Source of the DNA: Opitutia bacterium
GTDB lineage: Bacteria; Verrucomicrobiota; Verrucomicrobiia; Opitutales; UBA953
Direction: 5' to 3'
Length of the DNA stretch: 64,000 nucleotides
NCBI GenBank assembly: GCA_003569165.1
Contig: BGOI01000003.1
Span: 1-64,000 of the forward strand
Made by a program: the position numbers and the translations under genes. The notes below the pieces were generated by a model. The model did not search any database. It saw only the letters and a program-made list of their open reading frames with translations, and was not told the DNA's origin. This document shows positions 54,612 to 64,000 of the stretch, one piece after another; within the stretch, counting starts at the first letter, position 1, and each line of letters begins with the position of its first letter.

Positions 54612-55805
54612 TCAGAACCACCGCTTGCGCTTCATCCAAAGGATGATGCCCGTCGCGAGGGCGCCCATGGAGCCTAGCGCCAGGAAGTAGCCGTATTTCT
54701 CGCCCCAGGCCGTATGGATTTCCGGCATGAAGTGAAAGTTCATGCCCCAGAGACCTACCAAGAAGGTCAGCGGGATGAACACCGAGCTCATCACCGTCAG
54801 CACACGAATGACTTCGTTGGTCTTTCGTTCCTGCTGGGTGTGGTGGTATTCCTGCAGGTCCTGCAGGATCATGCGGGCGTGCTCGATGCGGTCGGCCGCG
54901 CGAATCGCGTGGTCATACAGGTCTCGCAGGTACATGTCCAAGGTCGTCGGCAGCAAGGGGTGCTCGTAGTGTTCGAGGACGCTGACCATGTCCTTGAGGG
55001 GCTGGGCGAGGCGGCTGAGACGCACGACGATGCGCTTAAGGCGGTAGACCTCGTTGAGGTCCCAGTCGTCGGTGCCTTTGAGGATCGAGTCTTCGAGCTC
55101 GGTCGTGGCGTCCTCGATCTCTTCGGTCTGGTAGAGCAGTCGGTCGACGAGTGTGTCGAGGAGGGAGTAGATCAGGTAGCCCGCGTGCCACTTACGGATA
55201 TTGCCTTTGTTGTCGGCGATGCGTTTCTCGACGGCTTCGAAGACCTTCTCGTCGTTTTCGTGGAAGGAGATGACCCAGTTCTGGGCGGCGACGATGGAGA
55301 TCTGCTGGCCGCGCGGGGTATCTTCTTCGACGCCGATGCGGACCGCGCGGGCGATGGCGAGGAGCTTGTCGCCGTGTTCCTCGAACTTCGGACGGGAGGT
55401 GGCCGTCAGGATGTCTTCCTGCGCCAGCATCGGGATGTCGAAGAAGGCGCCGACGATGTGGACGATCTGGGGGTCGGTGATGCCGAGGACTTGGATCCAG
55501 ACCATCCCTGGCTTGCCGGCGTAGCGGCCGACGGAGTCCAGGTCGGAGAACTCGTCTACCTTACAGCTGTTCTCGTCGTAGGAGATGACCCGGAACTTGG
55601 TCGGGGCGGTGGACTCAAAGGGGGAGGCGGCCGGTAGCTGGCCGGGCGCGCGCCCGATTTCGGTGTCCTCGTAGGCGGCTTCGCCGGGCAGGGGGACGGC
55701 GTCGGCCTTGAGACCAAGCCGCGAACGCAGGTCGTTCATGCGTCGTTCCAGGAAGGAACGGGCGCGGGCCACTTCTTGCTGACGCCTCTGCTGATGCCGG
55801 CTCAT
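54612..55805 (-). CDS. corA: CorA-type magnesium/cobalt transporter
   Basis: C-term SVFIPLTFLVGLWGMNFHFMPEI..GIILWMKRKRWF, GMN motif. Confidence 0.92.
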   Translation of the reverse strand: MSRHQQRRQQEVARARSFLERRMNDLRSRLGLKADAVPLPGEAAYEDTEIGRAPGQLPAASPFESTAPTKFRVISYDENSCKVDEFSDLDSVGRYAGKPGMVWIQVLGITDPQIVHIVGAFFDIPMLAQEDILTATSRPKFEEHGDKLLAIARAVRIGVEEDTPRGQQISIVAAQNWVISFHENDEKVFEAVEKRIADNKGNIRKWHAGYLIYSLLDTLVDRLLYQTEEIEDATTELEDSILKGTDDWDLNEVYRLKRIVVRLSRLAQPLKDMVSVLEHYEHPLLPTTLDMYLRDLYDHAIRAADRIEHARMILQDLQEYHHTQQERKTNEVIRVLTVMSSVFIPLTFLVGLWGMNFHFMPEIHTAWGEKYGYFLALGSMGALATGIILWMKRKRWF

Positions 55806-55884
55806 GCCGCCATCATCCGAAGCCCCGGGTCGATGTCAACGGGTTCGGCGGGGTCGTCACCCCTAAGTCACATTCCGCCCCAGG

Positions 55885-56238
55885 TCAGGCTTTTCGCTGC
55901 CCCTTGGCGTTGCGGCGACCGTTCTTACCGATGCCCATCGTCACGAGTTTCCCTTGGTTCACCTTCTGGAAGAGGTTGTTCGAGTTAGTGACCCCGAGGC
56001 AGTAGAGCACTGCGGCCACGTCTTGAGCCTTGTCCTTGTGCACGAGGCCGGCGTTGGCGAGCCAGGTCGCGAGGGCGTGGTGGAAGTTGGGCGGGCTGAT
56101 GTCCAGATTCTCGCCACCGTGGCGCAGCCAGAGCTCGGCCCGATCTTTCATCGTGCAGTTGCCGCGTTTCTCCTGACGTTCGTGGAGATGGGCGAGAAGT
56201 TCGGAGAGGTTGTCGGGAAGCTTGGAGGATTCGGACAT
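55885..56238 (-). CDS. Conserved hypothetical protein
   Basis: ORF 55885..56304, likely start MSESSKLPDNLSELLAHLHERQEKRGNC. Confidence 0.55.
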   Translation of the reverse strand: MSESSKLPDNLSELLAHLHERQEKRGNCTMKDRAELWLRHGGENLDISPPNFHHALATWLANAGLVHKDKAQDVAAVLYCLGVTNSNNLFQKVNQGKLVTMGIGKNGRRNAKGQRKA

Positions 56239-56426
56239 CTGAGGCGGAAGGTGGCAGGGAAAAAGAAGGGAGATCGACGGGCTGGCCCCGCAGGGAGGCG
56301 ACATCGATGAGCCTTAGGAATAATTAAGCGACAGTTTGCTGGGAACACCTAATTACAATCTGACCTCTAATATTATAAACTAATAGAAACGCCCCAGCGG
56401 CGGGACTCTGCGGACAAGATCCCGGG

Positions 56427-56503
56427 TGGTGGTCGCGACAGGACTTGAACCTGTGACTTCAGCAATGTGAATGCTGCGCTCTAACCAACTGAGCTACGCG
56501 ACC
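56427..56503 (-). tRNA. tRNA-Val (anticodon CAC)
   Basis: GGTCGCG-TA-GCTC-AGTTGGTTA-GAGC-G-CAGCA-TTCACAT-TGCTG-AAGTC-ACAGG-TTCAAGT-CCTGT-CGCGACC-A-CCA cloverleaf, encoded CCA. Confidence 0.95.
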
Positions 56504-56628
56504 GTTACCCGAGAAGGTATCATATCCCTCTGGGGAGGGAGTCGGGCAAGCCTGTTTTCCTGCGGGGGAGGGGCCTTATCCGCGTGGTGGCTTGTCTTTG
56601 GCCTGGTTCGTCGCAATCCTGTGCAAAG

Positions 56629-56997
56629 ATGGACACCACCGCACCAGCCGCCAGCCCGCGCGTCGCCGACGAGCGCCTGATCCGCCTGACGGCCCCGGCC
56701 GGTGTCAAGGTGCGTGCTTTGGCCGCCCGCGAGGCCCAAGGCGGTTTCCTGCGCGTGGCGATCTCCGGCGGCGGCTGTAACGGCCTGTCCTATAAGATGC
56801 GTTTCGTGGGCGAGGCCAAACCGGCCGATATCCTTGTGCGCACGGAGGGCGTCGAAGTGCTGGTCGATCCGAAGTCGGCCCTCTACCTCCGCGGCACCCA
56901 GTTGGATTATTCCGACAAGATGATCGGCGGCGGCTTCAAGTTCTCCAATCCCAACGCCAAGGCCAGTTGTTCCTGCGGGGAGAGTTTTTCTCTTTAA
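56629..56997 (+). CDS. HesB/IscA/ErpA-type iron-sulfur cluster carrier
   Basis: LRVAISGGGCNGLSYKMRFVGEA..FSNPNAKASCSCGESFSL. Confidence 0.9.
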   Translation: MDTTAPAASPRVADERLIRLTAPAGVKVRALAAREAQGGFLRVAISGGGCNGLSYKMRFVGEAKPADILVRTEGVEVLVDPKSALYLRGTQLDYSDKMIGGGFKFSNPNAKASCSCGESFSL

Positions 56998-57075
56998 CGC
57001 GAAGGCGCAGCCTTCGCGAGGGGGGCACGTTGACACGCTGGCACGTGGGCAAGGGGGTATCGTGTTTGCCTCGAG

Positions 57076-57129
57076 GTAGGGCCGACCATCCTTGGTCGGC
57101 CGCGGTCGAGCAGGGATGCTCGACCCTAC
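57076..57129. repeat. BIME-like pair of opposed GTAG-footed hairpins
   Basis: GTAG-GGCCGACCA-tcct-TGGTCGGCC ... GGTCGAGCA-ggga-TGCTCGACC-CTAC. Confidence 0.85.
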
Positions 57130-57153
57130 CCAAGGCAGGGAGTTTGGCTCAAT

Positions 57154-57220
57154 GGGAGACCGGATGATTGGCTGGGTTATTAAATGCCCTAGCCAGCCTC
57201 CCGGTCTCCGGTTCCCCTTT
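57154..57220. repeat. Palindromic element, copy 1 (GGGAGACCGG..CCGGTCTCC with internal TTATTAA)
   Basis: GGGAGACCGGATGATTGGCTGGGTTATTAAATGCCCTAGCCAGCCTCCCGGTCTCCGGTTCCCCTTT. Confidence 0.8.
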
Positions 57221-57232
57221 GATTTCCTGGCT

Positions 57233-58374
57233 CTAGTCCGCCGGTATCTCGTCCTTCGCACCGGCTTCGTAACGTTCGCACCAGGACTTAGACCAAGAGG
57301 CGAAGTCGCCCGCGGCGATATGGGCGTGGGCCTGGGCCATGAGGTCCTGCAAGAAGTGGATGTTATGCAGCGCCAGCAACGTTCCGCCGAGCTGTTCGCC
57401 GGCGTGGTGCAGGTGACGCAAGTAGGCACGCGAGAAATGGCGGCAGGTGTAATTGTCCATGCCTTCCACGAGCGGACGGTGGTCGTCGCGGTAGCGCAGG
57501 TGTTTCACGCTGATCGGGCCGTCGGGCGTGAACGCGCCGCCGTGGCGGCCGATGCGCGTCGGCATGGTGCAGTCGAACATGTCGGCACCGAGCGCGACCA
57601 TGCGGAGGAGCTGGGGCGGCGTGCCGACGCCCATGACGTAGCGGGGCTTGTTCTTGGGCAGGAGGGGCGCGACGAGGCCGACCTGATGGAGCATATGCTC
57701 CTCGGGCTCGCCGACGCTCACGCCGCCGATGGCGTGGCCGGGGAAATCGAGGCCACCGAGTTCCTCGGCGCAACGGATGCGCAGGTCATCATAGACTGAG
57801 CCTTGGTTGATGCAGAAGAGATGACGACCCGAGGCCAGGAAGCCGCTGTCCTTCGCCAGCTGGAGCATCTCCTTGGCCCAGCGGATGGATCGGTTCACCG
57901 CGACTTCGCACGCGGCGCGCTCGCAGGGGTAGGGCGGGCACTCGTCAAGCACCATGGCGATGTCCGACCCCAGCGCATCCTGGATGTCGAAGCAGTCTTT
58001 CACGTCGAGGAACAGCTTGTTGCCGTCGAGGTGGGAGCTGAAATGGATGCCTTCGTCGGTGATCGTGCGGAGCTTCGCGAGCGAGAAGACCTGGAAGCCG
58101 CCGCTGTCGGTCAGGATCGGCTTATCCCAGTGCATGAACTTATGAAGGCCGCCGGCGGCGCGGACGATCTCGCGGCCCGGGCGCAGGTTCAGGTGGTAGG
58201 TGTTGCTGAGCAGGATCTGGGCGCCCGTCTCGGCGACCTGCTGAGGGGAGAGCCCCTTGACCGTGGCCTGGGTGCCGACTGGCATGAAGACCGGTGTGCG
58301 GATCTCCCATGGGGGGTCTTCAGCACGCCGAGGCGCGCGGCCGTCGTCGTATCAGTCTTAAGCAGGGTGAACAT
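57233..58374 (-). CDS. tgt: tRNA-guanine (queuine) transglycosylase, one apparent frameshift near 58307
   Basis: MFTLLKTDTTTAARLGVLKTPHG-[fs]-EIRTPVFMPVGTQATVKGLSPQQVAETGAQILLSNTYHLNLRPG; DSGGFQVFSL. Confidence 0.92.
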
Positions 58375-58425
58375 GTGTCGGGGACTAGGGTTTGGAGTAT
58401 GGAGTTTAGGGCCGATGACAACACA

Positions 58426-58453
58426 AGCGGTAAGCGGTTGGCGGTAGGCGGTT
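58426..58453 (+). repeat. Heptanucleotide tandem repeat RGCGGTW x4
   Basis: AGCGGTA AGCGGTT GGCGGTA GGCGGTT. Confidence 0.85.
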
Positions 58454-58471
58454 AGACACGCCGCAAAAGGG

Positions 58472-58495
58472 GTAGGGGCGTGATTTATCGCGCCC
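58472..58495 (+). repeat. GTAG-footed REP-like hairpin
   Basis: GTAG-GGGCGTGAT-tt-ATCGCGCCC. Confidence 0.75.
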
Positions 58496-58536
58496 TCCTA
58501 GGCTTACCCAGCCGCTAAGCGCTTAAACCAGATTGC

Positions 58537-58640
58537 GAGGGCTGAATAGAGAAAGGAACAGGGGAAATCAGCCCTGGTATCTTTTCAATTCAGTCCTCTA
58601 TCCAGTCCTCCACTCAGCGATCCACGCAGTCCTCCTCTGC
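58537..58640. repeat. 12-nt-period repeat, copy B
   Basis: GAGGGCTGAATAGAG ... TCAATTCAGTCCTC TATCCAGTCCTC CACTCAGCGATC CACGCAGTCCTC. Confidence 0.85.
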
Positions 58641-58655
58641 CGGTTTTTCCAACCG

Positions 58656-60011
58656 CTAGCCGCTACTACCTAGCGTTCCCATCAAACTAAGGCGCATGCC
58701 GCGCGGCGCATCGGCTCGGACCTTGCCATCTTCGTAGACGCAGACGCCGTTGACGAAGGTACGCTCGATGGTGCTGTTGAAAGTGTGGCCTTCGAGGGGC
58801 GACCAACCGCACTGGTAGAGGAGGCCAGCCTTGTTGACGGTGTGCGGCTTCTTGGGGTCCACGACGACGAGGTCAGCCCAGTAGCCTTCGCGGATGAAGC
58901 CGCGCTTTTCGACGCCGAAGAGCACTGCGGGCGCGTGGCACGCGCGCTCGACGGCGGTCTCGAGCGTGAAGGCGCCCTGGCGGACGAGGTCCATGAGTAC
59001 CTGGAGGGAATGTTGCACGAGCGGCAATCCGGACGGGGCTTTGAAGTAGGTCTGCGATTTCTCGTCCCACGTGTGCGGGGCATGGTCGGTCGCGATGACG
59101 TCGATGACGCCGGACGCCACGGCCGCGCGGACCGCGGCACGGTCGGCGGACGTCTTGATCGCCGGGTTGCATTTAATCTGGTGGCCGAGGCGGGCGTAGT
59201 CCTCTTCGGCAAACCAGAGGTGGTGCACGCAGGCTTCGGCGGTCAGGCGCTTGCCCTTGAGCGGTGCGGCGCTGAAGAGCGAGAGTTCCTTGGCGGTAGT
59301 GATGTGCAGGATGTGTAGGCGCGCGTCGTGACGCTTGGCCAGTTCGGCCGCCATCGACGAAGAAGCGTAGCAAGCCTCGACATCGCGGATGCGGGGGTGT
59401 TCGCTGGCAGGTACGGCTTCACCCCACTTGGCCTTGGCGGCGGCTTCGGCCAGCTTGATGCGCGGGGTGTCCTCGCAGTGCGTCAGGATGATGGTGGGCG
59501 AGTGACGGAAGATGCCTTCGAGGGTGGCGACGCTGTCGACGAGCATGTCTCCCGTGGAGGAGCCCATGAAAATCTTCACTCCGCAGACCTTGCTCGAATC
59601 GATGGACTTGATGGCTTCGACGTTGGAGTTGGTCGCTCCGAAGAAGAAGGAGTAGTTGGCAACCGAGGTGGCGGCACCGATGGCATATTTCTTTTCGAGC
59701 TCCTCCTGCGTGGTCGCGGGAGGGTTCGTGTTCGGCATCTCCATGAACGACGTCACGCCGCCGGCGACGGCCGCGCGGGCTTCGCTGGCGATACAGGCCT
59801 TATGCGTCAGGCCAGGCTCACGGAAATGCACCTGGTCGTCGATCAGGCCGGGGAGGAGGAGCTTGCCGGTGAGGTCGTATTCCTGGTCGGCCTTCGTGCC
59901 GGCGGGGATCGTACCGATGCGCTCGATGCGTCCGGCGCGGAGTAGGACGTCGGCCCGGAGGCGACGGCCTTCGTTGATGATTTCGGCGTTGCGGAGGACG
60001 ACGGTGGGCAT
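58656..60011 (-). CDS. pyrC: Dihydroorotase
   Basis: LLLPGLIDDQVHFREPGLTHKACIASEARAAVAGGVTSFMEMPNTNP..DVIATDHAPHTWDEK. Confidence 0.92.
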   Translation of the reverse strand: MPTVVLRNAEIINEGRRLRADVLLRAGRIERIGTIPAGTKADQEYDLTGKLLLPGLIDDQVHFREPGLTHKACIASEARAAVAGGVTSFMEMPNTNPPATTQEELEKKYAIGAATSVANYSFFFGATNSNVEAIKSIDSSKVCGVKIFMGSSTGDMLVDSVATLEGIFRHSPTIILTHCEDTPRIKLAEAAAKAKWGEAVPASEHPRIRDVEACYASSSMAAELAKRHDARLHILHITTAKELSLFSAAPLKGKRLTAEACVHHLWFAEEDYARLGHQIKCNPAIKTSADRAAVRAAVASGVIDVIATDHAPHTWDEKSQTYFKAPSGLPLVQHSLQVLMDLVRQGAFTLETAVERACHAPAVLFGVEKRGFIREGYWADLVVVDPKKPHTVNKAGLLYQCGWSPLEGHTFNSTIERTFVNGVCVYEDGKVRADAPRGMRLSLMGTLGSSG

Positions 60012-60064
60012 GGGCAGAGCTATTCAGCCCGAAACCCCGGCCACCGCAAACGGGAAACTTCGAA

Positions 60065-60565
60065 TCAGGCCGTCACCTTCACCATATCCGAAAGGTCGGC
60101 CTTCTTGACGCCTTCTGGGTTGATGTTGACGGCCGAGACGCGGAACTGGGCGCCGCGCTTGTGGTTGAACTTCAGGATGAAATTGGTGACGACCATCTTT
60201 TCCTCGGGGTAGAGCTCGGTCTTGCGGGCGACCATGGTGGTGACGAGTTCCTCAACCTGTTCGCCGGTGGCGCCAGGTAGCTTGGCGAGGGTAGCCTTGG
60301 CATCTTGAATCTTGGGGCCGCCTTCGATGGCCGCGTTCCAGATCAGGATGGCGACGTTCATGGCGCCCTTGGCGGCGGTGTGGTTGCCGCCGGCCTGCTC
60401 GAGGATGGGCTGGGCGAAGGTGATGAGCTTGTCCGCAAAGCTGGGCTCCCGCGGGGTGGTGTCGACCGGGGCCGGCTCAGGACGGGTGAAGTCGCGCAGG
60501 ATGTCGCGGGGCTTGTTATTGCCGAAGGCACCGGTGGTCTTGCGACGAGAATGGGGGGAGGCCAT
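60065..60565 (-). CDS. Conserved hypothetical protein
   Basis: ORF 60065..60679, likely start MASPHSRRKTTGAFGNNKPRDILRDF. Confidence 0.55.
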   Translation of the reverse strand: MASPHSRRKTTGAFGNNKPRDILRDFTRPEPAPVDTTPREPSFADKLITFAQPILEQAGGNHTAAKGAMNVAILIWNAAIEGGPKIQDAKATLAKLPGATGEQVEELVTTMVARKTELYPEEKMVVTNFILKFNHKRGAQFRVSAVNINPEGVKKADLSDMVKVTA

Positions 60566-60681
60566 TGGAAAGGATGTCCCCCAAGGGAAGCCCGAGCGGT
60601 CCCCTCGGCAAGCCCTTTCCCATTGGGCGTCCCTTGACACCCCGCCCGGGGTAGGCCAGCCTGCCTTCACCGCCACCACCC

Positions 60682-61203
60682 GTGTCCGATTACAGCGACG
60701 TCATCCGCGCCCATCGCCGCGACCACCTCACGAAGCCGAATTCGTTGCCGACGGGCGTTCACCGTTACTTCGAGAGCACGCTCCTGCCGCTACCGATCGA
60801 GCAGGTCTTTGATTTCTTCTCGAAGGCCGAGAACCTCCAGGCGATTACCCCGCCGGAACTGAGCTTCCGGATCAAGACCCCGTTGCCGATTGCCATGCGC
60901 CAAGGAGCCCTGATCGATTATGATCTAAAGATGAGTGGTATCCCGTTCGGCTGGCGCACCCGCATCACCCACTGGGAGCCGCCTTACGCCTTCGCCGACG
61001 AACAGCTCAAGGGTCCGTATGCCGTCTGGTTCCATACGCACACGTTCGCCGACGAAGGCGGCAAGACGCGCATGGACGACGAAGTGCTTTATAAGCTCCC
61101 GCTCTGGCCGTTCGGCGAGATCGCCTATCCGTTCGTGAAAGCCAAGGTCGAACGCATCTTCCGCTATCGTCGAGCGAAGATCCGCGAGATCCTCGGTTGC
61201 TAG
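60682..61203 (+). CDS. SRPBCC/START-like ligand-binding protein
   Basis: LPIEQVFDFFSKAENLQAITPPELSFRI..IDYDLKMSGIPFGWRTRITHWEPPYAFADEQ. Confidence 0.85.
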   Translation: MSDYSDVIRAHRRDHLTKPNSLPTGVHRYFESTLLPLPIEQVFDFFSKAENLQAITPPELSFRIKTPLPIAMRQGALIDYDLKMSGIPFGWRTRITHWEPPYAFADEQLKGPYAVWFHTHTFADEGGKTRMDDEVLYKLPLWPFGEIAYPFVKAKVERIFRYRRAKIREILGC

Positions 61204-61248
61204 GCGTTGTAGGGCTAGAGACAGGGCCAGGCCTAGGGCTAGTGGATA

Positions 61249-61280
61249 TTCCTACCCCTACCCCTGCCCCTACCCCTACC
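61249..61280 (+). repeat. C-rich hexamer tandem repeat (CCCCTA/CCCCTG)n
   Basis: TTCCTACCCCTACCCCTGCCCCTACCCCTACC. Confidence 0.85.
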
Positions 61281-61281
61281 G

Positions 61282-62097
61282 TCACTTCTTCTCCGGCGTC
61301 GGCGGCGGCGGACAGTCCGGAAGCATCGCCCGTGCCTCGAAGGAGGCCAGGTTGTCCTGCCGGCCCGCCCAAGCGATGCCGCGGATGAGCAGGCTCTTCA
61401 CGTCCGGTCGGCTGAAGTTGACGTAGGTGTGCCCGGGGATGAAGACGAAGGCGCGCTGGGCGCCCGGCTTCTCATACGTCCAGAGCTGGGTCTGCGCCTC
61501 GAAGCCATCACCTTTCTTCTTGGGCGTAGGGGCCGTCGCGAGCGCATGGATATCTGCGCGCAGGTCCATGTCGTAGTAGATCTCGTCCTTCATGCCGAAG
61601 TCCGCGATGCCCTTCGTGATGCCGTGGGCTTTATCGACGAACTTGAGTTCCATCGGGCCTTCGCGCCACTTGGTGACCTTCTGACGCCAAGAGCCGCCGA
61701 CGAGGTCCTTGTAGAAATCGGCGGAGGCGTCGTTGCCGGCGACGGCGCCGGCGTGGATCACCACGAAGCTGCCGCCGCGAGTTGCGAATTTCTCGACCCG
61801 CGTCTTTTCATCGGGCTTGAAGTCTCCGCCGCCCTGGCGGTGGATGACGAGCACGTCGGTCCGGGCGAGTTCTTCGTCGGAGGGGAAGGTCTGCACGCCC
61901 TTGGCGTCGGCGTCGCCGACGGAAACCTTCATGCCAGCCGCATTCAGCAGGGGCCTCCAGTCGCGCGCGAACGCCGGGTGGTCATGGTCGCCCGGGCCGT
62001 GGCTCTTGGGGCCGCAACGGAGGAAGACGCGGAGCGGAGCAGGGGCATCAGCGGCAAAGACCGAGACGATGGCCAGCAGGGGTAGGAGGCAGCGCAT
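61282..62097 (-). CDS. ThuA-like domain protein with signal peptide
   Basis: MRCLLPLLAIVSVFAADAPAPLRVFLRCGPKSHGPGDHDHPAFARDW..LVIHRQGGGDFKPDEKTRVEKFATRGGSFVVIHAG. Confidence 0.8.
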   Translation of the reverse strand: MRCLLPLLAIVSVFAADAPAPLRVFLRCGPKSHGPGDHDHPAFARDWRPLLNAAGMKVSVGDADAKGVQTFPSDEELARTDVLVIHRQGGGDFKPDEKTRVEKFATRGGSFVVIHAGAVAGNDASADFYKDLVGGSWRQKVTKWREGPMELKFVDKAHGITKGIADFGMKDEIYYDMDLRADIHALATAPTPKKKGDGFEAQTQLWTYEKPGAQRAFVFIPGHTYVNFSRPDVKSLLIRGIAWAGRQDNLASFEARAMLPDCPPPPTPEKK

Positions 62098-62143
62098 GGG
62101 GGGAGATTGAGTGCAAAAGTGCAAAAGTGCAAAGGTGGAGAGA

Positions 62144-62180
62144 GGGGCAGGGGTAGGGGTAGGGGTAGGGGCAGGGGTGG
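62144..62180 (+). repeat. G-rich hexamer tandem repeat (GGGGTA/GGGGCA)n
   Basis: GGGGCAGGGGTAGGGGTAGGGGTAGGGGCAGGGGTGG. Confidence 0.85.
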
Positions 62181-62189
62181 CACCGTCAC

Positions 62190-62267
62190 AAAGGGAGACC
62201 GGAAACCGGGAAGGATGCTGCGGTTATTAATGCCCCCAGCCAATCATCCGGTTTCCGGTCTCCCTTT
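62190..62267. repeat. Palindromic element, copy 2, inverted relative to copy 1
   Basis: Perfect 20-bp arms AAAGGGAGACCGGAAACCGG / CCGGTTTCCGGTCTCCCTTT. Confidence 0.85.
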
Positions 62268-62289
62268 GAGTTTGTTTTCGTTGCATCGG

Positions 62290-62343
62290 GTAGGGTCGAG
62301 CATCCCTGCTTGACCGCGGCCAACCAAGGATGGTCAGCCCTAC
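62290..62343. repeat. BIME-like pair of GTAG hairpins, near reverse complement of 57076-57129
   Basis: GTAGGGTCGAGCATCCCTGCTTGACCGCGGCCAACCAAGGATGGTCAGCCCTAC; about 4 mismatches over 60 nt to reverse complement of copy 1. Confidence 0.85.
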
Positions 62344-62368
62344 CTAGTGAAGAAGCTGGCGCTAGAGT

Positions 62369-63007
62369 TCAGATCACGCCTGGCAACTGATCCAGCGACG
62401 TGATAAACGCATCCGCCCCGGCCTTCACCTTGGCGCGGACGGCGTAGCGGCCGAAGCCGATGACCTTATCGGCATCGCCCTTGACCTCGAGGTCGCTGGC
62501 GCCGTCGCCGACCATGACGACAGTCGTGGCCTGATGTTCGGCGCGGAGACGGCGGGCGACGACGTTCTTGCCCTTGGAACGGCAGGTCGGGCAGGACTCG
62601 TCGAAGCTGGCGTAGGAGCCATCGGCGTGGAAACGGAGGATCACCGCTTCGACGCGGTCGATGCCGAGGTAAGCGGCGAGCGGGAGGATGGCCTGGGTGA
62701 AGCCGCCGCTGACGATGGCGATCTTCCAGCCCGCGGCGCGGAGCTGCTCAAGCGTCGCCTTGGCGGTGGGCTCGACCGTCGCGATATACTTCGCGCCGAT
62801 GGCTTCCAGCTCGGCCTTGGTCGGCTTGATGATGTCGAGACGCTTGGCGAAGATGGCTTCCATCGGCGTGCCGCCGTCCATGGCCGCGTTGGTCATGTCC
62901 TCGATGGCCTTGAAAGTCTCCGGCCCGCGCAGGCGGCCGAGCTCGTCGATTCCCTCGATGGACGAGAGGGTCGAATCACAGTCGAGGAGCAGGAGCTTCG
63001 TGGCCAC
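62369..63007 (-). CDS. serB: Phosphoserine phosphatase (HAD family)
   Basis: LLLDCDSTLSSIEGIDELGRLRG..IVSGGFTQAILPLAAYLGID..VVMVGDGASDLEVKGDAD. Confidence 0.88.
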   Translation of the reverse strand: MATKLLLLDCDSTLSSIEGIDELGRLRGPETFKAIEDMTNAAMDGGTPMEAIFAKRLDIIKPTKAELEAIGAKYIATVEPTAKATLEQLRAAGWKIAIVSGGFTQAILPLAAYLGIDRVEAVILRFHADGSYASFDESCPTCRSKGKNVVARRLRAEHQATTVVMVGDGASDLEVKGDADKVIGFGRYAVRAKVKAGADAFITSLDQLPGVI

Positions 63008-63059
63008 GAGGGAACTACAAAGGGCGCCACCGATAAGGTCAAGAAAGGGCGGTGAGTGA

Positions 63060-63087
63060 GAGTATTGAGTATCGAGTATGGAGTATC
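63060..63087 (+). repeat. Heptanucleotide tandem repeat GAGTATN x4
   Basis: GAGTATT GAGTATC GAGTATG GAGTATC. Confidence 0.9.
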
Positions 63088-63145
63088 GGGGTTGATGTGT
63101 GGTGCCGTTATTAAATGAGAGTGTCGCGGTTTGGGGATTCGTTTC

Positions 63146-63179
63146 GGGTGGCGGGTGGCAGCCCCGGGTGGCAGGTGGC
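63146..63179 (+). repeat. Heptanucleotide repeat RGGTGGC, 2+2 copies
   Basis: GGGTGGC GGGTGGC agcccc GGGTGGC AGGTGGC. Confidence 0.75.
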
Positions 63180-63196
63180 AGGATTGCTTGTCCTCA

Positions 63197-63250
63197 TCGA
63201 TTCAGCCCTCGATTCAGTCCTCAATGCAGTCATCGACTCAGTCCTCTCCC
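63197..63250 (+). repeat. 12-nt-period repeat, copy C
   Basis: TCGATTCAGCCCTC GATTCAGTCCTC AATGCAGTCATC GACTCAGTCCTC. Confidence 0.85.
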
Positions 63251-63316
63251 GGCGGTCCCGGCCCTACCTACTGCAGGGTTGCCCTCTCGTCGGGTTGGCT
63301 CACTCTTCCGCTCATC

Positions 63317-63718
63317 ATGGCCTGCACCCCTCCTACCTCCGCCTCCGAAGTCTTCTGCCGCGCTGCCAAGTGCAACCGCCTCATGGGCCGGGTGCTCTTC
63401 GCTTTCGCCATCTTCCTAACGTTGATCCTTGTCAGTGGCAGCACCGAGTTCATCCGCAACTCCTCCGCGGGTAACGTCGGCAGTGCCGAGCGCATAGTCG
63501 GGCACCTGACGTCCGTCGTCGCTCAGTTGACCCTGCTTCTCTCTGTCCTATTCCTCGCCCGCCGTCGCTCCTCCGCCGCGCACCACGCCATGGTTAAGTC
63601 GAATAACCTCAAGGCCCTCGAGCTCCTTGCCGCCTCCGCGACCGACGAAGCCACGAAGAAGGACCTCCTCGCCCGCGCCGCCGACCTCGTCGCCGGCAAG
63701 CCGGGTTGCTGCAAGTAA
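63317..63718 (+). CDS. Small membrane protein, unknown function
   Basis: ORF 63131..63718, likely ATG 63317: MACTPPTSASEVFCRAAKCNRLMGRVLFAFAIFLTLILVSG..; two TM segments, C-term CCK. Confidence 0.55.
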   Translation: MACTPPTSASEVFCRAAKCNRLMGRVLFAFAIFLTLILVSGSTEFIRNSSAGNVGSAERIVGHLTSVVAQLTLLLSVLFLARRRSSAAHHAMVKSNNLKALELLAASATDEATKKDLLARAADLVAGKPGCCK

Positions 63719-63734
63719 GCGGACGTAAAATAAG

Positions 63735-63766
63735 GTAGGGACAGCACCACGTGCTGTCCTTTTTTG
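63735..63766 (+). terminator. REP-like GTAG hairpin followed by T-run, doubles as terminator of 63317..63718
   Basis: GTAG-GGACAGCAC-cac-GTGCTGTCC-TTTTTTG. Confidence 0.75.
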
Positions 63767-63988
63767 TGCCCGCGTTCGCCGCATGGTGAACGCCAGGGTA
63801 GGGGCGGGACTACGTCACGCCCTGGCCTGCATGGGTAGGGACGTGATTACCATCACGTCCGCGGGCGGACGGACATCGGAAAGATCGGTTACCTTGCTCG
63901 GCTCGTCGCGCGCGCCATCGCGAACGGCGGTCATGGCAATGACCGCCCTACCCGATACCGCTAGGACAGCACGTGGTGCTGTCCCTAC
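63735..63988. repeat. Cluster of five GTAG-footed hairpins (three forward, two reverse)
   Basis: 63735 GGACAGCAC/GTGCTGTCC; 63798 GGGCGGGAC/GTCACGCCC; 63835 GGACGTGAT/ATCACGTCC; 63926 GGCGGTCAT/ATGACCGCC-CTAC; 63964 GGACAGCAC/GTGCTGTCC-CTAC. Confidence 0.85.
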
Positions 63989-64000
63989 CTCGAGGCCTTA

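Follow-up and report, generated by a model that had tools for sequence, protein, structure and literature searches.

Near the right-hand end of the window (the whole 64,000-nucleotide stretch that was analysed, from an uncultured freshwater bacterium of the Opitutales, corresponding to C3:1-64000), five hairpins that share a GTAG foot but have different stem sequences are crowded between two convergent genes. This arrangement raises the question of whether the hairpins represent one structure whose sequence is free to change, or several distinct elements that have accumulated at one site. All five hairpins described for positions 63735-63988 in an earlier note are present there, with three pointing forward (63735, 63798 and 63835, plus strand) and two pointing backward (63951 and 63988, minus strand). 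Their loops measure 3, 3, 4, 4 and 3 nt along the cluster, within the 3-4 nt range reported previously, and four of the five stems are perfect, including the two 9-bp stems at 63835 and 63926..63951 for which this had been claimed. The only imperfect stem is that of 63798, which carries one G·A mismatch at stem position 6. The two outermost elements, 63735 and 63988, together form a perfect 28-bp inverted repeat.

The gene to the left is a small ORF on the plus strand (63131..63718; its start is uncertain, and position 63316 lies in the part aligned with relatives) that ends just before the cluster and is conserved in related genomes. A dispersed repeat of ~110 bp (cctcatcgattcagccctcgattcagtcctc...) is located at 63138-63247 and has dozens of matches in the genus at 75-98% identity; it is not a GTAG hairpin. 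On the right is the 3' end of a minus-strand gene (63985..64000) that runs past the window and encodes the C-terminus EQEKKDKASR followed by the stop; a Pfam search of this fragment gave no match. The TAG stop codon of this gene (63985-63987) is part of the GTAG foot of the 63988 element. An Rfam search of positions 55000-64000 returned a tRNA only, and no known RNA family at the hairpins. The tRNA gene (56430-56503, minus strand) lies about 600 bp from another GTAG element, at 57076.

By the same rule, three further hairpins occur within the window (57076, plus strand; 57129, minus strand; 62290, plus strand), and this total of 8 compares with a mean of 0.24 and a maximum of 3 in 50 dinucleotide shuffles of the whole window. 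The wider structural-pattern search that the earlier note had called for was run on sampled stretches of the same genome, some of them picked around known matches, and the resulting densities are therefore not genome averages, although feet were always compared inside identical stretches. In 429 kb, GTAG ranks first among the 256 possible 4-base feet, with 137 perfect 9-bp hairpins or 67.7 per 1000 occurrences, whereas the median foot has 0. Likewise, 17.1% of GTAGG sites in 759 kb open a hairpin, compared to 0-0.22% for six control feet. The larger sample, which is also partly centred on known matches, contains 208 GTAG hairpins that are dispersed and present in high copy, and pairs less than 300 nt apart are convergent in 63 cases and divergent in 7. 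Two tracts of ggggtagggg / cccctacccc repeats in the window (61237-61290 and 62144-62185) contain GTAG and lack 9-bp hairpins.

The cluster elements thus have GTAG directly 5' of a short palindrome, occur in high copy, and form inverted pairs at fixed spacing, as do REP elements and the paired units called REPINs. REPIN spans are fixed by family at 54, 71-72 or 114-117 nt. Two 54-nt examples reside in the window, at 57076..57129 (GGCCGACCA/TCCT plus GGTCGAGCA/TCCC) and at 62290..62343, where the right arm, read by eye, contains G.T wobbles.

The association of such elements with RAYT (TnpA_REP, HUH/Y1) transposases, proposed in the earlier note, can be examined directly in this genome (assembly of 2.03 Mb in 37 contigs, 86.6% complete). 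There are four RAYT genes, located at C1:465330, C3:71723, C3:76288 and C32:11596. The HUH and Tyr residues are invariant in all four proteins. All four genes were recovered with NF047646 and only one with PF01797; the C32 protein matches NF047646 at 2.7e-19 and also the solved TnpA_REP structure 4er8, while the NF047646 score falls under the curated cut-off for several RAYTs, C32 included (69.5 versus 80). The window was correctly described as lacking a RAYT, and because it corresponds to C3:1-64000, the two C3 genes are situated just outside, 8-13 kb past its edge. Each of the four RAYTs is flanked by GTAG hairpins with a stem and loop of its own: GGACAGCAC/CAC for C3:76288, GGGCAGCAC/CGC for C3:71723, GGTCAGCAC and GGTCGGCAC/TGC for C32, and GGCCGAGCA/TCCC and GGCCAACCA/TCCT for C1, the last being the family of the two 54-nt REPINs. 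The REP/RAYT reading is borne out by these genes and their flanks.

Comparison with these and other RAYT flanks reveals that the five cluster hairpins are REP elements of three families, and not one family of freely varying stems. Family 1 comprises the outer elements at 63735..63759 (plus strand; GTAG + GGACAGCAC / CAC / GTGCTGTCC) and 63964..63988 (minus strand, inverted relative to the first), which are identical in type to the hairpin beside the RAYT at C3:76288. There are 44 matches to this hairpin at no more than one mismatch in the genome. Family 2 is represented by arms at 63835..63860 (plus strand; GTAG + GGACGTGAT / TACC / ATCACGTCC) and 63926..63951 (minus strand; GTAG + GGCGGTCAT / TGCC / ATGACCGCC), which together constitute a 117-nt heteromeric inverted-pair REPIN (63835..63951) whose single strand is predicted to fold as two local hairpins. 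These arms match a RAYT-flanking pair, GGCGGCCAT/TGCC ... GGACGTGAT/TGCC, in relative G043 (L130), and a second 117-nt pair of this type is present elsewhere in the same genome. Family 3 is a lone left arm at 63798..63822 (plus strand; GTAG + GGGCGGGAC / TAC / GTCACGCCC) that resembles GGGCGGGGC/TAC hairpins flanking RAYTs in other relatives, where its G·A mismatch at position 6 is shared in 5/5 cases. The 86.6% complete assembly yielded no RAYT for family 2 or family 3, and the family-2 RAYT was found only in G043. Fixed mismatches or wobbles mark some REP families (G.A at 6, G.T at 3, T.G at 4 or 6); they are kept in all RAYT-flanking or all same-genome copies, which indicates a family mark and not decay.

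Hairpin type also tracks RAYT phylogeny. The 59 RAYTs of the genus form clades with one hairpin type per clade, and only 16 loop changes are needed to account for 17 loop types on 57 labelled tips, compared to a mean of 42.9 and a minimum of 37 in 200 shuffles. This was a rapidly built tree in which several branches are long and the deep joins unsure, but the clade-level match is independent of those joins. One RAYT of this freshwater group, 81% identical, comes from CALQLO010000040.1 (L177), which is titled Akkermansia muciniphila and is probably a mislabelled MAG. Copy number follows a similar trend, with a median of 12.8 family-1 REPs per Mb in genomes with a close family-1 RAYT versus 4.8 in those without (p=1.4e-4, not corrected for phylogeny). 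Thirty genomes carry at least 5 family-1 REPs but no close family-1 RAYT, as would be expected after RAYT loss or from incomplete assemblies; orphan REP classes have been attributed to RAYT loss in published work (PMC3686654).

Many relatives retain both the left small ORF and the right gene, and the REP mosaic between them differs in each relative read. There is a single hairpin in G003. In G034, family 1 is present together with the family-2 REPIN, and 63798 has no counterpart. G007 carries family 1, a further REPIN, and a family-3 REPIN that is complete, with the 63798 arm and its right partner. Other REP sets occupy the site in G028, G016, G014, G052, G040, G041 and G008. The right-hand gene of G052 and that of G040 likewise end in a TAG taken from a REP foot, although different REPs are involved, and the remaining relatives read use a stop of their own. 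No clean boundary between an empty and a filled insertion site could be drawn from the orthologous sites read. At a neighbouring spot, corresponding to window positions 63007-63131, a RAYT is found between a HAD-like gene and the small ORF in G007 (L126) and G037 (L127), and the L126 gene has GTAGGGTCGGGACCGCGTCACGACA on both sides, with mismatches in the stem.

Collectively, RAYT linkage, tree congruence, fixed spans, site mosaics and the copy-number difference lead us to conclude, with a probability of about 0.93, that the cluster is a mosaic of three REP/REPIN families between two convergent genes, each family being the substrate of its own RAYT. Three other explanations can be weighed against the same observations. 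The palindromes might instead be binding sites maintained by the host, given that E. coli REPs bind host proteins such as gyrase, IHF or Pol I (as cited in PMC3686654). This proposal predicts neither RAYT-specific hairpin types nor the presence of different families at one site in each relative, and we consider it improbable as the primary explanation, though host use could be a secondary role that is compatible with a transposase origin.

Slightly less probable still is the possibility that the hairpins are intrinsic transcription terminators of no mobile origin. Their location between convergent genes is appropriate for such a function, a run of six T residues (63760-63765, plus strand) directly follows the family-1 element at 63735 in a terminator-like position for the upstream ORF, and a T-run recurs at the orthologous sites of G034, G007 and G024. 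However, at least four T residues come right after the stem in only 5 of the 208 GTAG hairpins in the 759 kb sample, and a terminator role accounts for neither the constancy of the GTAG foot nor the presence of these hairpins beside RAYTs. We therefore reject a terminator-only role, since the T-run is generally absent and within the cluster accompanies the single copy at 63735.

The least credible explanation is that favoured in the earlier note, a single family whose stem drifts freely while structure alone is kept, because, even though stems differ inside one cluster and REPIN arms differ yet stay paired, exact stem/loop types recur (GGACAGCAC/CAC in 38 copies, 32 of them perfect, in 759 kb), there is a one-to-one correspondence between these types and the RAYT clades, and orthologous copies decay without compensation, with the last two observations causing us to reject it. 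Hairpins at the orthologous site are gained, lost or decayed unrepaired, so this location shows no maintenance of structure. The covariation that had been sought among orthologues is evident at a different level: between the two arms of a REPIN and between RAYT families, pairing is retained despite changed sequence. Thus, the earlier statement that structure rather than sequence is maintained fails across the cluster, since its stems and loops are conserved family sequences tied to RAYT clades, and holds for REPIN arms and for comparisons of RAYT families.

The mosaic of REP/REPIN families also exposes a regular arm anatomy. Partner arms of a REPIN share the foot, the basal GG, the apical pairs and the loop; in nearly every case their stems diverge at positions 3-7. 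Of 24 distinct RAYT-linked pair types, 16 have agreeing loops, where shuffling would give 2.4. Position 8 of the stem agrees in 22/23 types and position 9 in 21/23 while positions 3-7 vary, although pair types inside one RAYT clade are not independent. The first three loop bases are common to both arms in 86 of 118 distinct REPIN sequences; identical stems are present in only 3 of these 86, and the differences fall almost wholly at positions 3-7, with position 7 often occupied by C in one arm but by G in its partner. The excess of arm differences over random arm pairing is at or near the shuffle maximum in most classes and outside it only for class TCC_4. Among 66 right arms picked by foot and spacing alone, 65 have at least 8 of their 9 positions paired, and all 66 differ from the stem of the left partner; these arms were probably counted from both strands and so represent about 33 independent pairs. 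Folding predictions that used DNA energies give two local hairpins for 47 of 60 natural pairs and for none of the in-silico homodimer versions, which suggests that unlike arms may keep the two hairpins of a REPIN separate.

The most likely mechanism is one in which the cognate RAYT would act on the single-stranded state by reading the GTAG foot, the basal GG, the apical pairs and the loop, whereas the middle stem positions 3-7 would mainly need to pair. The RAYT would then cut the element and copy or paste it into new intergenic sites. In vitro, loop bases are critical for group-3 TnpA_REP enzymes, and stem changes are mostly tolerated if pairing is kept (PMC8266576); the REPIN arm pattern is what such loop recognition and tolerance would predict. 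We tentatively extend this to a genus-wide code, in which the two apical pairs would be read along with GTAG, the basal GG and the loop, and stem positions 3-7 would be kept unlike between arms, often through a C/G swap at position 7, allowing local folding of each arm and leaving the two strands distinguishable. Such a code is a real possibility, to which we assign somewhat worse than even odds.

REPs, REPINs and RAYTs have all been described before, as have heterodimers and the occurrence of GTAG REPs in Opitutus, and this cluster is nothing unusual for genomes of this kind. The GTAG REPs of Opitutus terrae (PMC3733652), a related verrucomicrobial host, resemble those analysed here in their GTAG foot, in having a short stem and loop, in forming inverted HH dimers as well as heterodimers, and in their association with RAYTs. 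In comparison with that species, considered here by its description, the present genus of freshwater MAGs has many RAYT-linked families and spans of 54, 71-72 and 114-117 nt. GTAG heterodimers were noted in that work, where protection from hairpin-cutting enzymes was proposed and the preference for heteromeric pairs had no obvious explanation (PMC3733652). Group-3 REPtrons of Stenotrophomonas and Marinomonas (PMC8266576) likewise carry GTAG and a short perfect palindrome with a stem that mainly requires pairing and a 3-4 nt loop whose sequence is important. Most families here have a palindrome of this form and some have a fixed mismatch or wobble; furthermore, the stem is 9 bp instead of the 8 bp of Sm, with an invariant basal GG and apical pairs, and the likeness lies in the features of the hairpin. 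As in the Pseudomonas and Stenotrophomonas classes (PMC3686654), each RAYT has a single REP class whose copy number depends on it, and RAYT loss leaves orphan classes, but REPIN arms here are almost always heteromeric with a common loop. Finally, an inverted REP pair is the unit here as in the REPINs of Pseudomonas fluorescens (PMC3116915), and the arms in our genus differ in that most are predicted to fold separately because their stems are different.

A systematic arm/loop rule was not found stated in the REP/RAYT literature examined, in which coverage of journals is incomplete. With 17 loop types over 57 RAYTs, this one genus supplies many natural combinations of RAYT and hairpin, from which it can be read off which parts of the hairpin are constant and which vary. 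How specific RAYTs are, and why REP pairs tend to be heteromeric, become directly testable questions. If the recognition code is true, the natural series of RAYTs and hairpins would be a ready-made specificity panel.
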